A stretch of 64,000 bases of DNA from Acidobacteriota bacterium (lineage in GTDB: Bacteria; Acidobacteriota; Thermoanaerobaculia; Multivoradales; JAGPDF01). A model generated the notes under the pieces. The model saw nothing but the letters and a program-made list of their open reading frames with translations, was not told the origin of the DNA and ran no database searches. Positions 14,218 to 20,570 of the stretch are shown here, piece by piece. The DNA lies in NCBI GenBank assembly GCA_014584695.1, contig JACTMI010000028.1, forward strand, positions 186,001-250,000. Direction: 5' to 3'. How positions within the stretch are numbered: the first letter of the stretch is position 1; every line of letters begins with the position of its first letter. The position numbers and the translations under genes were made by a program.

Positions 14218-15804
14218 TCAGATCGAGCGCCGGACGTCGGACAGCTCGAGCTTCCAGACCGGAACGCCGCAGTAGCGCGAGCCCTCGGGGCAGGGGGGCC
14301 TGACTTCGGCGCGATGTCGCTGGCTGCACGGTGGCAGCAGCCAGCGGCCGAGGCGGGGGTGGACGGCGGCGATCTGCTCGGCCTCGTCGAGGCTGGCGCG
14401 CCAGATCTCCTCCTGCGCATTCAGGCAGAGCCGCATGGTGTGCTTGTGGTGGAGATGCAGCAGGTCCGCCGACTCCGAAAAACGGATCGCGACGGCGTTC
14501 GGCAACAGGTAGTGAGCGACCTCCGCGGTGGCGCCCAGGCGCGCCAACCGGCTCATCCCCTCCCAGGCGCGCGCGCAGCTGTCGTGGAAGAAACGGCGGC
14601 ACCCCTCGTCGCGGGCGAGCAGGGCGGGCTCGACCACATCCGGCTCGTCGTCGACCTGCGCCGCCAGGATCGGCCGTGACGCCGGCGTCATCCGATGGCG
14701 CTGGTCCTGGGAGTCGGCGGTGTGGGAGAGCTTCTTGCGAAAGGTGTAGTGGGCGTGGCCGAGGCAGCGCGCCAGCTTCGAGTGGGTCCCGAGGTTGAGC
14801 GCCTCGCCCAGGTAGCGGTTGCGCGCCGGATCGAGCACCGCCAGCAGGGCAGCGTCGTCCGACAGCTCGCTGAAATCGGCGCCGAGCACCTCGCGCACCG
14901 CCGTGGCGACCGTCTCCTCGGCCGACACCTTCCAGTCGACCAGGCGGGAGACGCGGCCGTCCAGCGCGGCGTCGAAGCGCTGGCGGAAGCCGGGCGCGGG
15001 GCCACCGCGGCCGAGCGCCTCGTAGTGCAGGTGCTCCGGAGTCGATTCGAGTGGCAGCGTCTCCTCGAGCACGCGGGCGTAGTCGGGATCCACCGCCAGG
15101 ACCGCCTCGACCATGCGTTCGACCACCTCGCGCTGCTCGGTCGGGGCGTCGAAGAGCGCCGCCAAGCGGCGGTAGCGGAAGAGCGTCACCGCCGAGATGG
15201 TGTGGTAGAGGTAGGCGAAGGTCGCCACCGGCAGGAGGTAGCGGGCGACCTCCTGCGCCCGCTTGCCGATCTCCTTCTCCCAGCGTGCGGCCTGGTGCCG
15301 CCGCGCCGGAAAACGCTCGTAGAAGGCCGCCCCGGCGACCGGTACCAGCCTCCGGGACAGCTCCTCGTAGTCGGCGACCATCCGGTCGGCGGTGGCGCGG
15401 TAGATCGCCAGCGCCTCGCCTGAGAGCGCGGGGATGGCGTAGCTGCCGGACCGCACGGTGACGTAGCGCTGCGAGACTTGCTCGGAGTTGTAGAACGGGT
15501 GCGCGTGGAGGAAGCTCCACAGCAGCTGCCGGCTGACGTTGGCCAACGCGAACTGGAAGTGGACGTGCTGGAAGGTGGTGTGGTGGCCGGCGCCGTAGAT
15601 GTCGGCCGCCAAGCGATCGCGCTTCGAGCGTCTGGCCGCCGCCGCTCCGGGCTCCAGACCGTCGCCGGCAACCTCCTCGGGAGTCACGATTCCCTTCGCC
15701 GAGTAGCAGGTTCGGGCCGCGGCGACGGCGTTGTCGAAGCCGCGCTCGAAGCGGCGGACGAGGCGGACCTCGGGAGGCGGGGAGAGGAAGCGCGACGTCG
15801 ACAT
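14218..15804 (-). CDS. thyX: Long two-domain FAD-dependent thymidylate synthase (ThyX-like)
   Basis: ThyX makes dTMP from dUMP using FAD, NADPH and methylene-tetrahydrofolate. Usual ThyX proteins have 220-260 residues; this one has 528 and reads as two ThyX-like halves. The first half has HHTTFQHVHFQF and the SQRY end of the active-site motif (about residue 112), but the RHR triad is replaced by AHP. The second half carries QRHRMTPAS (about 368) and MRLCLNAQEEI (about 460), which match the dUMP-binding segments, but it lacks the SxRY tail. A single chain may therefore build each active site from both halves. An AGGA site 6 nt before the ATG at 15804 supports this start. The gene diverges from lemA. 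Confidence 0.85.
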   Translation of the reverse strand: MSTSRFLSPPPEVRLVRRFERGFDNAVAAARTCYSAKGIVTPEEVAGDGLEPGAAAARRSKRDRLAADIYGAGHHTTFQHVHFQFALANVSRQLLWSFLHAHPFYNSEQVSQRYVTVRSGSYAIPALSGEALAIYRATADRMVADYEELSRRLVPVAGAAFYERFPARRHQAARWEKEIGKRAQEVARYLLPVATFAYLYHTISAVTLFRYRRLAALFDAPTEQREVVERMVEAVLAVDPDYARVLEETLPLESTPEHLHYEALGRGGPAPGFRQRFDAALDGRVSRLVDWKVSAEETVATAVREVLGADFSELSDDAALLAVLDPARNRYLGEALNLGTHSKLARCLGHAHYTFRKKLSHTADSQDQRHRMTPASRPILAAQVDDEPDVVEPALLARDEGCRRFFHDSCARAWEGMSRLARLGATAEVAHYLLPNAVAIRFSESADLLHLHHKHTMRLCLNAQEEIWRASLDEAEQIAAVHPRLGRWLLPPCSQRHRAEVRPPCPEGSRYCGVPVWKLELSDVRRSI

Positions 15805-15934: not shown

Positions 15935-16540
15935 ATGAGCAAGGCACTCGGATGTGGGTTGGCCGCGCTGGCGGTGATCGGAATCCTGGCCTTTCTGGGC
16001 GTCGGCCAATACAACGGCCTGGTGGGCGCGGAGCAAGCGGTGACCGCGGCCTGGTCGCAAGTGGAGAACGTCTACCAACGGCGGGCCGACCTGATCCCGA
16101 ACCTGGTCGCCACCGTCAAGGGCTCCGCCGACTTCGAGCAGGAGACGCTCCAGAACGTCATCGAGGCGCGCAGCCGCGTCGGCCAGATCTCGGGCCAGGC
16201 GGCCGAGCAGATCCTCAACGATCCGCAGCGATTCGCCCAGTTCCAGCAGGCGCAGGACGGGCTGTCGTCGGCGCTGTCGCGCCTGCTGGTCGTGGTGGAG
16301 CGGTACCCGGAGCTGCAGTCGACGATCGCGTTCCGGGACCTGATGACCCAGCTCGAGGGCTCCGAGAACCGGATCGCGGTCGAGCGCCGCAACTTCAACG
16401 AGGTGGCGCAGAGCTACAACACGCGCCTGCTCCGGTTCCCTACCAACCTGTTCGTGCGCTTGCTCGGCTGGCACTTCCAGGCTCGGCCCTACTTCCAGGC
16501 GGCCGCCGGCGCCGACGTGGCGCCCAAGGTCGAGTTCTAG
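15935..16540 (+). CDS. lemA: LemA family membrane protein
   Basis: This 201-residue protein has one N-terminal transmembrane helix (about residues 5-25) and then the LemA four-helix domain. The family hallmark is clear: AWSQVENVYQRRADLIPNLV, followed by QETLQNVIEARSRV and the C-terminal VAQSYNTRLLRFPTNL. LemA proteins are envelope proteins of unclear mechanism, often encoded beside TPM-domain proteins, as here. The ATG has AGGAG about 12 nt upstream. The next gene starts 7 nt after the stop, so they form one unit. Confidence 0.95.
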   Translation: MSKALGCGLAALAVIGILAFLGVGQYNGLVGAEQAVTAAWSQVENVYQRRADLIPNLVATVKGSADFEQETLQNVIEARSRVGQISGQAAEQILNDPQRFAQFQQAQDGLSSALSRLLVVVERYPELQSTIAFRDLMTQLEGSENRIAVERRNFNEVAQSYNTRLLRFPTNLFVRLLGWHFQARPYFQAAAGADVAPKVEF

Positions 16541-16547
16541 GACGCCG

Positions 16548-17321
16548 TTGAACGGGCCCTTCCGCCGCTGGCTCGCTGCGGCGGCGCTCGCGCTCGTCGC
16601 CGTCACCGCGAACGCGGCGCCGGAGCCGGCCGCGCCGCCTGCCCGGTGGTTCACCGACCGCGTCGGCGTCGCCTCACCCCAAGCCGCGGGCCGGATCGAC
16701 GCGCTGCTCGAGAGCTTCGAGCGCGAACAGGGGTCTCAGCTCCTGGTCGTCGTGCTGCCGCGGTTGCCGGCGGGTGAGGCGCTCGAGGACTGGACCCAGC
16801 GCACCGCCCAGGCCTGGCGCGTCGGCCGCGAGAAGCAGGACGACGGCGCGGTGCTCTTCGTCTTCGTCGAGAATCGGCAGTTGCGGCTCGAGGTGGGCTA
16901 CGGGCTCGAGGGGGCGCTCACCGATCTGGAGTCGAAGGTCATCCTCGACGAGGTGCTGGTGCCTCGGCTGCGCGCGGGCGATTGGGACGGCGGCCTCGAA
17001 GCGGCGGCCGCGGCGATGATCGAGTCGGTGCGCGGCGAGTATCTGCCAGACCCCGCGAGCGGAGCGCGCGCGTTGCGGGGCGGCGCGAGCGGGCTGGTGA
17101 TCGCCCTGACACTCCTGGCGCTCGTGGTGTTCCTCGTCGTCGCATCACGGCGGGCGGGGCGACATGGCGGCTTCCGCGGCGGCGGCGGACCCTGGGTCTC
17201 CGGTGGCGGCGGCGCCGGTGGAGGTTTCGGCGGTTGGAGCGGCGGCTCGTTCGGTGGCGGCGGTGGCTTCTCCGGTGGCGGCGGCTCGTTCGGTGGCGGT
17301 GGGGCTTCGGGGCGTTGGTGA
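16548..17321 (+). CDS. TPM-domain (YgcG-like) membrane protein with glycine-rich tail
   Basis: This 257-residue protein has a cleavable-type signal peptide ending near NAAPEPA, then the TPM (TLP18.3/Psb32/MOLO-1) domain with EQGSQLLVVVLP and VGYGLEGALTDLESKVILDE. A transmembrane helix (about residues 185-203) and a cytoplasmic or surface tail of repeated GGGG/SGG units follow. The start is TTG, with AGGA five nucleotides upstream over the lemA stop; no ATG fits before the signal peptide. The LemA-TPM pairing is common across bacteria, but its role is not established. The stop overlaps the start of the next gene (GTGA). Confidence 0.9.
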   Translation: MNGPFRRWLAAAALALVAVTANAAPEPAAPPARWFTDRVGVASPQAAGRIDALLESFEREQGSQLLVVVLPRLPAGEALEDWTQRTAQAWRVGREKQDDGAVLFVFVENRQLRLEVGYGLEGALTDLESKVILDEVLVPRLRAGDWDGGLEAAAAAMIESVRGEYLPDPASGARALRGGASGLVIALTLLALVVFLVVASRRAGRHGGFRGGGGPWVSGGGGAGGGFGGWSGGSFGGGGGFSGGGGSFGGGGASGRW

Positions 17322-18172: not shown

Positions 18173-18556
18173 TCATGGCCCGCGTCTCGGCCGTCCGCGG
18201 GGGCGCCACTGAAATCGCGCGAGAGGAATGCGCCCGCGAGCATCGAAGCGAACTCCTTCGTGCTCGAGGATCACCCGCTGCAGCGCCTCGTGGCCGCCGG
18301 GATCCGAGCGCCGGCTCACCTCGCCGCGGGCGTTGACGACACGCTGCCAGGGCACGCCGGTCGCGGCGGGCAGCGCGTGCAGGGCGTAGCCCACCAACCG
18401 GGCCTGACCGGGCAGGCCGGCGAGCGCGGCGATCTGGCCGTAGGTCGCGACGCGGCCGCGGGGGATACGTGCGACGGCGGCGTGGATCCTCGCGTGCGTC
18501 GCCTCTGGCGGCGGCTTGACCGCTTCGTGCCGCGCGGGTCGTCGACGGGGTTCCAT
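18173..18556 (-). CDS. Alkyltransferase-like (ATL) DNA-binding protein, MGMT family
   Basis: This 127-residue protein matches the DNA-binding domain of O6-methylguanine methyltransferase: RIHAAVARIPRGRVATYGQIA, then LVGYALHALP and GVPWQRVVNARGEVS. The active-site PCHR of true methyltransferases is replaced by PWQR, so it cannot accept an alkyl group. ATL proteins bind and flip alkylated guanine and hand the lesion to nucleotide excision repair. Most ATLs keep PWHR, so Gln here is a small deviation. It is the last gene of the addB-addA-kynA-kynU run, 29 nt after the kynureninase-like gene. Confidence 0.88.
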   Translation of the reverse strand: MEPRRRPARHEAVKPPPEATHARIHAAVARIPRGRVATYGQIAALAGLPGQARLVGYALHALPAATGVPWQRVVNARGEVSRRSDPGGHEALQRVILEHEGVRFDARGRIPLARFQWRPRGRPRRGP

Positions 18557-18585
18557 GGGTGAGCGCGACGACTCCGATTCACCCT

Positions 18586-19794
18586 TCAGCGACTCGGATC
18601 GTCCAATGTCCGCGCGACCTCTCCGACCAGCTCCATCGCCCGGTCGAGCTGGGCGTCGGCGAGATAGGGAGCCGGTCCGAGGCGCAGGCGGTCGGCCCGG
18701 TGGTCGGTCGCGACGCCGCGGTGGGTGAGGGCACGAGCGAGCGCGTGGGCCCGTGGCGACTCGAGCGCGAGGAAGCCTCCGAGGGCTTCGACCGGCACCG
18801 CTCGGTCCCTGCGGACGAGGGCCGCGGGAAGGTCGAGCGTGTCGAACGCGGCGGCGAGGCGAGCGACCTGGCGGCGGTAGTTGGCGCGCAGGACTTCGGG
18901 GCTCAGCCCGCGGTCGACGAAGAAGTCGGCGACCCGCGCCGCGCGGTAGTGGCTGACCGGATCGTAGGTCGCGCCGGCGAAGCGCGCCGCCGCGCTGGCG
19001 GGGTAGGCGACGCGGGTCGGTTCGGCCTCGGCTTCCAGGTCGGAGAACTCGGCGTACCAGCCGGTCAGCGCCGGTCGCATCGCGGCCGCCTGGGGCGGCA
19101 GACGGAGATAGGCGTTGCCCTCGCCCCACTGCAGGTACTTGTAGCCGCCGCCGGTGACCCAGGCCGCCGCCAGGCCCAGCTCGGCGAGCGGGTAGGGGAG
19201 GCAGCCGGCCGCGTGGTAGGCGTCGACCAGCAGCTCGGCGCCCCAGCGCGCGCAGGCGGTGGCGGCCGCGGCGAGGTTGGGCACGATCCGGCTGGTCTCG
19301 AACAGGACGGCCGAGACGAGCACTGCGGCGGTGCGGTCGTCGACGGCGAGCGCCAGCCGCTCGCCGAGCGTGGCGACCGGCTCGACGGCCACTCGCTCGA
19401 TCTGGAGGCCGGTCTCGTCGAGACGCGCGAGCTGGCGGCGCAGCGTGTGGAACTCGCCATCGGAGGTCACCAGCCGCGGACGCCGCACGAGATCGAGCGC
19501 CGACAGGAAGCGCAGCACCAGCTCGTGGGTGTTCTGACCGAGCGCGATCTCGCCTCCGGGATCGCTCAGCCAGAGGCGTACTGACGCCCGCACCCGCTCG
19601 GCCTTGGCGAAGGCCCGCTCCCACTTGGCGTCCACCCCATCGGCCGCGTCGTCGAAAGCCGCCTGAACGCCGTCGAGCGCCACGTCTGGCCAGGCTTGGT
19701 GGGAGTGCCCGGTCAAGAGCAGACGCTGCGCCACCCGGAAGCGCGCATAGTGCGGCGCGAGGGGATTCGGCGTACCGGCGAGCGGCTCGCTCAC
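18586..19794 (-). CDS. kynU: Kynureninase-like class V PLP enzyme
   Basis: This 402-residue fold-type I PLP enzyme is in the aminotransferase class V/kynureninase group. It starts with LLTGHSHQAWPD, comparable to the kynureninase GNSLG region, and has LVDAYHAAGCLPYPL (cofactor-binding Asp). The Schiff-base Lys lies in TGGGYKYLQWGEGN near residue 217. Kynureninase cleaves kynurenine to anthranilate and alanine. Placement immediately after kynA, with which it overlaps by GTGA, is the main reason for this assignment; another class V function is possible. No kynurenine formamidase is encoded in the window. Confidence 0.8.
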   Translation of the reverse strand: MSEPLAGTPNPLAPHYARFRVAQRLLLTGHSHQAWPDVALDGVQAAFDDAADGVDAKWERAFAKAERVRASVRLWLSDPGGEIALGQNTHELVLRFLSALDLVRRPRLVTSDGEFHTLRRQLARLDETGLQIERVAVEPVATLGERLALAVDDRTAAVLVSAVLFETSRIVPNLAAAATACARWGAELLVDAYHAAGCLPYPLAELGLAAAWVTGGGYKYLQWGEGNAYLRLPPQAAAMRPALTGWYAEFSDLEAEAEPTRVAYPASAAARFAGATYDPVSHYRAARVADFFVDRGLSPEVLRANYRRQVARLAAAFDTLDLPAALVRRDRAVPVEALGGFLALESPRAHALARALTHRGVATDHRADRLRLGPAPYLADAQLDRAMELVGEVARTLDDPSR

Positions 19795-20570
19795 AGCTCC
19801 GTGCGGATGGCCCAAAGGTCGGGGAACAGCGGCTCGAAGAGGGTACCGCGCAGATAGGCGGCGCCGGCCGAGCCGCCGGTGCCGCGCTTGGTGCCGATCG
19901 TCCGCTCGACCATCTTGACGTGCCGGTAGCGCCACTCCTGAATGCCCTCGTCGAGGTCGACCAGCCGCTCGCAGATCTGCGCCAGATGGGGGTGGCCGCG
20001 ATAGAGCTCGATCAGCGTCGGGTGGAGCTCGTCGCATTCGGGGTTCGATGTCGCGAGGTCGCGCGCGAGCAGGGCCGGTGGCACCGCGAAGCCGTGGCGG
20101 GCGAGGAAGCTGACGAAGTGGTCCCAGAGCGAAGGCTCGCGGAGGCGGCGCTCCAGGGTGGCCAGAGCCGGCGACTCGGCGTGGTGGGCGAGCATTCCGC
20201 GGTGGCGGCGCCCGAGCACGAACTCGAGCTCGCGGAACTGTGGCGACTGGAAACCCGAAGCCGCTTCGAGGCGGCTGCGGAACGACAGGAAGGAGACCGG
20301 ACTCATCGTCTCCAGGATGTCGATCTGCGCCACCTGGACCTTGAGGACGGTGAGAATCCGTTTGAGCGTCGCGTAGACCGCCGGCAAGTCGTCGGCATCG
20401 AGGCGGGCGGCGAGGAAGTCGAGCTCGTGCAGCATCTGCTTGAACCAGAGCTCGTAGACCTGGTGGATGACGATGAACAGCATCTCGTCTTGCTCCGGCC
20501 CCTCCGACTTGGGGCGCTGGCAGGCGAGCAACTCGTCGAGCGCGAGGTAGTTCGAGTACGTCAGCGACAA
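19791..20570 (-). CDS. kynA: Tryptophan 2,3-dioxygenase
   Basis: This heme enzyme opens the indole ring of tryptophan to N-formylkynurenine. The 259-residue product has the N-terminal block YSNYLALDELL, the active-site region IVIHQVYELWFKQMLHEL, and near residue 213 the RHVKMVERTIGTKRGTGGS block with the heme-ligating His. No ATG fits. TTG at 20570 is preferred because GGAGGA lies 5 nt upstream and the family begins here. It lies 25 nt after addA and overlaps the kynureninase-like gene by four bases, so both are probably made together. Confidence 0.95.
   Translation of the reverse strand: MSLTYSNYLALDELLACQRPKSEGPEQDEMLFIVIHQVYELWFKQMLHELDFLAARLDADDLPAVYATLKRILTVLKVQVAQIDILETMSPVSFLSFRSRLEAASGFQSPQFRELEFVLGRRHRGMLAHHAESPALATLERRLREPSLWDHFVSFLARHGFAVPPALLARDLATSNPECDELHPTLIELYRGHPHLAQICERLVDLDEGIQEWRYRHVKMVERTIGTKRGTGGSAGAAYLRGTLFEPLFPDLWAIRTEL

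Follow-up and report, generated by a model that had tools for sequence, protein, structure and literature searches.

A tandem ThyX from an Acidobacteriota bacterium that probably divides one composite thymidylate synthase site between its two halves

How can a chain made of two fused ThyX copies work as a thymidylate synthase when neither copy carries all motifs of the family? This question is raised by a gene on the minus strand of the window, by which we mean the whole stretch of 64,000 nucleotides analysed here (assembly GCA_014584695.1, contig JACTMI010000028.1, positions 186,001 to 250,000). A sequence-only reading had described its product as a tandem ThyX of twice the usual length whose halves show complementary motif losses, and had suggested that one active site is divided between specialised halves. 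From profiles, predicted structures, alignments and gene content, we consider it very probable that this long ThyX is a fused ThyX pair which divides one composite active site and which serves as the cell's flavin-dependent thymidylate synthase.

The frame of the long thyX ends with a stop at 14218 and is open from either GTG 15852 or ATG 15804 (Table 1). Since residues 1-17 of the longer form are disordered in the AlphaFold model (pLDDT <50), the model favours the ATG as the likelier start; residue numbers throughout are counted from the GTG, with M17 being the ATG. The neighbours of thyX, LemA and TPM proteins upstream and an ECF sigma factor and a protein kinase downstream, have no bearing on thymidylate synthesis. 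The LemA-family gene, directly followed by the TPM-domain gene (15935-17318), is divergent from thyX. Elsewhere in the window, genes for a kynureninase-like protein and a tryptophan 2,3-dioxygenase are adjacent on the minus strand (18176-20570), and a short protein with an MGMT DNA-binding domain (18176-18556) adjoins the pair.

Table 1. Long thyX and the parts of its product, with window coordinates and residues counted from GTG 15852
Feature	Coordinates	Strand	Basis
Long (tandem) thyX	14218..15804	-	528 aa from ATG 15804, 544 aa from GTG 15852; ORF and two Pfam Thy1 matches
Half 1, predicted Thy1 fold, residues 25-268	15049..15780	-	VIA-align Z 15.8, rmsd 2.2 A over 194 residues, T. maritima ThyX 4kat
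H90-T92, half 1, at the positions of the B-role residues H53 and T55 of T. maritima	15577..15585	-	H in 77/82, T or S in 82/82 long ThyX
AHP 117-119 replacing RHR, lost A-role motif of half 1	15496..15504	-	32 single ThyX read R/K-H-R/Q
SQRY 127-130, SxRY dUMP loop and Tyr lid, half 1	15463..15474	-	S and R in 82/82, Y in 81/82
R204, half 1, corresponding to R147 of T. maritima	15241..15243	-	Invariant in half 1 (82/82), unconserved in half 2
Linker between the Thy1 folds, residues 269-298	14959..15048	-	Predicted largely helical (DSSP of model)
Half 2, predicted Thy1 fold, residues 299-544	14221..14958	-	VIA-align Z 15.7, rmsd 2.0 A over 193 residues, C. glutamicum ThyX 3fnn
RHR 385-387, FAD/dUMP-binding motif, half 2	14692..14700	-	Each residue in 82/82
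RLCLNAQEEI 474-483, half 2	14404..14433	-	R474 in 82/82; mostly Cys or Ala in half 1

That the protein consists of two ThyX copies, as the sequence-only reading held, is borne out by profiles and predicted structure alike. Pfam Thy1 (PF02511) matches the long ThyX twice, at 155.8 bits in total against a cut-off of 24.8, and in the genome profile search the halves match separately (E 2e-29 and 8e-17) over nearly the full 191 positions of the profile. The NCBIfam equivalog model for thyX (TIGR02170), whose 211 positions describe the single-domain enzyme, gives 83.6 bits and thus falls just below its cut-off of 87.9, so automatic naming by this model could miss the long form. An AlphaFold monomer model of the 544-residue form, built with 82 long homologues, reaches a pLDDT of 93.9 and a pTM of 0.91, and the latter value, taken over all 544 residues, implies that the two predicted halves are packed in a defined way. 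Because residues 25-268 and 299-544 each superpose on solved ThyX structures (Table 1), with half 2 also matching M. tuberculosis ThyX (Z 15.6; rmsd of half 2 to this and the C. glutamicum enzyme 2.0-2.1 A), each half is by this model a whole ThyX fold and neither is an unrelated domain. A second monomer model, of a distant type of long ThyX, is likewise confident (pTM 0.83); its half 2 matches ThyX at Z 17.1, and its half 1 is barely covered among the matches listed. Thy1 of Thermus thermophilus (6j61), which is among the best fold matches and is itself a lengthened ThyX, differs in that its 270 residues comprise one Thy1 domain with a small C-terminal extension and no second copy.

The two copies have not kept the same residues. 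In half 1, SRQLLWSFLHAHPFYNSEQVSQRYV shows AHP where RHR is expected and an intact SQRY; this half also keeps an Arg corresponding to R147 of T. maritima but has none for R174. Half 2 reads SHTADSQDQRHRMTP and later MRLCLNAQEEI; it thus has RHR together with R474, which by alignment is the equivalent of T. maritima R174 and M. tuberculosis R199, and is without SxRY. The AHP, SQRY, RHR and MRLCLNAQEEI segments agree with what had been read from the letters of the gene, and the replacement of RHR by AHP is equally plain when half 1 is aligned with single ThyX. We also considered whether the RHR of half 2 might sit at the SxRY position and rejected this, as alignment with single ThyX of the same phylum places it in the true RHR column. 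Single ThyX, in contrast to the long form, have an RHR-type and an SxRY motif together in one chain (32 of 32 aligned).

We then asked of a sample of long ThyX, drawn from Acidobacteriota genomes and 80 named contigs, whether the split is kept. One type of these proteins resembles the window protein (41-85% identity, the closest named relative being L099 at 85%), while the other types are more distant from it, at 17-20% identity. The combination of S.R in the first half with RHR and R474 in the second was present in 140 of the 141 sequences we checked. As L094, which lacks it, does not belong to the tandem ThyX, every assessable long ThyX (140 of 140) shows the split, down to about 18% identity, these counts not being phylogenetically independent. 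RHR-(x7-8)-SxRY as one contiguous chain segment is absent from all 140, and none has both motifs in one half. Among 82 aligned long ThyX, S107, S127, R129, Y162, R204 and E239 are invariant in half 1, as are R385, H386, R387, P409, Y448 and R474 in half 2. Given this retention in 140 of 140 sequences and the invariance of the motif residues, the alignments tell us that the split is not a matter of chance or decay, and the complementary loss proposed from one sequence is a conserved trait of the long homologues.

These data also weigh on the view that one half is a pseudoenzyme, kept as scaffold or regulator, while the other carries the whole site alone. Pseudoenzyme halves are often found in fused proteins of other kinds, and each half here does lack part of the motif. 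Yet a complete set in one half occurs in 0 of 140 sequences, and even in sequences with about 18% identity each half still has its own share unchanged (SxRY and R204 in half 1, RHR and R474 in half 2), a constancy of site residues that a scaffold alone would not show. To our minds this makes a pseudoenzyme half highly improbable. An annotation artefact, be it a frame error, a chimeric assembly or genes merged through a missed stop, has next to no chance of being the explanation, as the same architecture recurs in 199 Acidobacteriota genomes and 80 named contigs, which stem from many separate assemblies.

The exception L094 (G125:C1, ~7106324-7107049) is an unusual single ThyX-like protein with NTHRMFSRNASSSRAIP. 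Its GHxSPFEH segment, normally N-terminal to the motif, follows the R174-like segment, so that judged by the order of its segments the protein looks circularly permuted; similar proteins are possibly present in other genomes of the same family (code f65).

The long form is widespread, being present in over a dozen bacterial phyla. Named loci come from Acidobacteriota, Planctomycetota, Nitrospirota, Bacteroidota, Fidelibacterota, Verrucomicrobiota, Myxococcota, Armatimonadota, Pseudomonadota, Chloroflexota (two contigs), Ignavibacteriota, Abditibacteriota, Omnitrophota and others. Contigs classed as viral in IMG/VR (L179, 137 kb; L187, 40 kb; L253, 340 kb) encode long ThyX with the same split; tblastn against annotated phage records gave weak matches to single ThyX and did not find the long form. 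An unfused, two-gene version of the split enzyme was not seen among 258 loci. In the same 258-locus set, single ThyX that a simple regular expression had flagged as incomplete mostly look like full-motif variants (e.g. VRYRHAS, SHRF). In two loci (L059 and L065, from genomes G097 and G190) the frame of a single ThyX is broken right after KHRIA or KHRIG by an insert beginning CLTGD, an interruption that resembles an intein at the RHR motif.

What the two subsets may stand for is suggested by the published site of ThyX. In the M. tuberculosis enzyme, RHR and R199 (T. maritima R174) come from subunit A, S71 (T. maritima T55) and R190 from subunit B, and R87, S105, R107 and the lid residue Y108 from subunit C, the last three being S88, R90 and Y91 in T. 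maritima (PMC6514825); T. maritima H53 is supplied by a third monomer (PMC11940539). The motif loss in the 82 long ThyX follows these roles. Half 2 keeps the A-role residues (T. maritima Q75, R78, H79, R80 and R174) in 75-82 of 82 sequences, and half 1 has lost or mostly lost all of them except H79. Conversely, the C-role residues, including the one equivalent to M. tuberculosis R87, are kept together with R147 in half 1 (75-82 of 82; S88, R90, Y91 and R147 equivalents in 81-82) and have gone from half 2 entirely or for the most part. In 32 single ThyX, Q75, R78, R80, R174, S88, R90, Y91 and R147 are invariant or nearly so, and the conserved A and C residues are each present once per long chain. 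With the A residues in half 2 and the C residues in half 1, the division fits the published subunit roles; half 2 would hence supply the role of subunit A and half 1 that of subunit C, which lends support to the earlier idea of one site shared between specialised halves. The B role probably falls to half 1 as well: equivalents of H53 and T55 are kept there in 77-82 of 82 sequences, whereas in half 2, in a stretch that is hard to align, H53 is found in 42 of 82 and the T55 column holds Arg in 81 of 82. In the window's type neither half has a counterpart of M. tuberculosis R190, another B-role residue, though this position varies in single ThyX too (Arg in 12 of 32).

An ordinary ThyX has four identical subunits and four sites, each built from three of them (A, B and C). 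With half 2 acting as A and half 1 as C and probably B, two long chains could form a pseudo-tetramer in which A and D are half 2 and B and C are half 1. Under the 222 symmetry of ThyX (PMC3498832), this would give two complete FAD/dUMP/folate sites and two sites from which residues of all roles are lost, so that each chain would account for a single working site rather than two. We infer such an assembly, a dimer of chains with one live site in each, together with the chemistry of ordinary ThyX, whereby methylene-tetrahydrofolate, NADPH and dUMP would yield dTMP. A divided site could also be paired in another way, with A and B taken by half 2 and C and D by half 1, and a dimer of chains would then likewise hold two complete A-C pairs. 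That pairing, however, requires the B-role H53 and T55 to lie in half 2, against the counts just given; this evidence is weaker than the A/C result, as half 2 can be aligned there with little certainty, and on balance we regard the other pairing as quite improbable.

R362, P409 and R457 of half 2 show little or no variation in any type of long ThyX, and R362 lies in the column which holds the B-role Ser/Thr of single ThyX. One reading of these residues is that the two surrendered sites have been put to another use, e.g. as a regulatory nucleotide or folate site, which strikes us as rather unlikely.

In its own genome, which is 97.8% complete, the long ThyX is the sole detected thymidylate synthase: profile searches there found no second ThyX and no ThyA (PF00303), nor did they find the dihydrofolate reductase FolA (PF00186). 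Across 396 Acidobacteriota genomes we counted long ThyX in 199, single ThyX in 68 (long and single forms being assigned by match score to the long-form profile) and full-length ThyA in 97. Not one of the 199 genomes with long ThyX, which are related by descent, also has full-length ThyA; single ThyX and ThyA occur together in one genome. Ten families, the window's own included, contain both long-ThyX genomes and ThyA genomes, which points to repeated replacement. We left short partial matches to ThyA (profile positions ~81-225, E 1e-6 to 1e-25) out of the ThyA count; they are seen in several dozen genomes (e.g. G364, G146, G037), some beside long ThyX, and are probably ThyA-related enzymes of other function.

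The gene content bears on whether the long protein might be a ThyX-derived enzyme for another substrate, e.g. in nucleotide modification. Its score slightly under the NCBI thyX cut-off would be compatible with this, and the ThyX fold does include the UMP/dUMP methylase PolB (4p5a/4p5b). But the genome offers no other candidate for thymidylate synthesis and lacks FolA, as do many ThyX users, and in the phylum the long form never accompanies full-length ThyA, with which it alternates within ten families. We therefore find a different substrate most improbable and keep to thymidylate synthase. In this the long form resembles ThyX as known from T. maritima (TM0449) and M. tuberculosis (PF02511) by the predicted fold of both halves, by the RHR, SxRY and R174 motifs, by the reaction these suggest and by its genomic role as sole detected thymidylate synthase. 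In the known structures, though, each chain of the homotetramer is ~220-260 residues long and has all motifs, unlike the two divergent fused copies here, each of which is without part of the site.

As to the origin of the fusion, all first halves group together in trees and so do all second halves (support 78-88), the pattern expected from one old duplication. Separate duplications, be it of the window's type (p 0.65) or of the remaining types (p 0.52), are not rejected by an AU test. At such modest support and with this test result, the long form may stem from one fusion or from several.

A domain-duplicated, uncharacterised ThyX was noted in 2009 in Chloroflexi and a few other species (Biol Direct 2009 4:30, PMC3224940), and it very probably has the same architecture as the long ThyX; the passages found in that paper do not mention complementary motif loss, division of the site or wide spread. 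In the open-access literature, to which our search was confined, we met with a duplicated ThyX in no other paper and found no description of a divided ThyX site. What thus seems to be new is that the complementary loss is conserved, that it fits the subunit roles and that it is spread so widely; the duplication as such was noticed earlier.

Nor is the principle of a fused oligomer that keeps a single composite site new, as such fusions are known in other enzymes. The monomeric herpesvirus dUTPase and the two-domain tRNA-splicing endonucleases are fused, single-site descendants of oligomeric enzymes. They are like the long ThyX in the duplication and fusion of a subunit with its site at an interface, in the loss of redundant motifs and, by the assembly proposed for the long ThyX, in having fewer sites per assembly, and differ from it in fold and reaction, both of which are unrelated to ThyX.

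ThyX has been studied as a homotetramer with four identical three-subunit sites, which makes the roles of single subunits hard to assign by mutation. In a long ThyX with these roles split over linked domains, each role would become separately mutable, and the protein may thereby serve to test whether four sites are ever needed. For the phylum, moreover, the long form is the only detected type of thymidylate synthase in about half of the sampled genomes and, as it extends to over a dozen other phyla, annotation and metabolic models that expect a ThyX of ~220 residues with a contiguous motif should allow for it.
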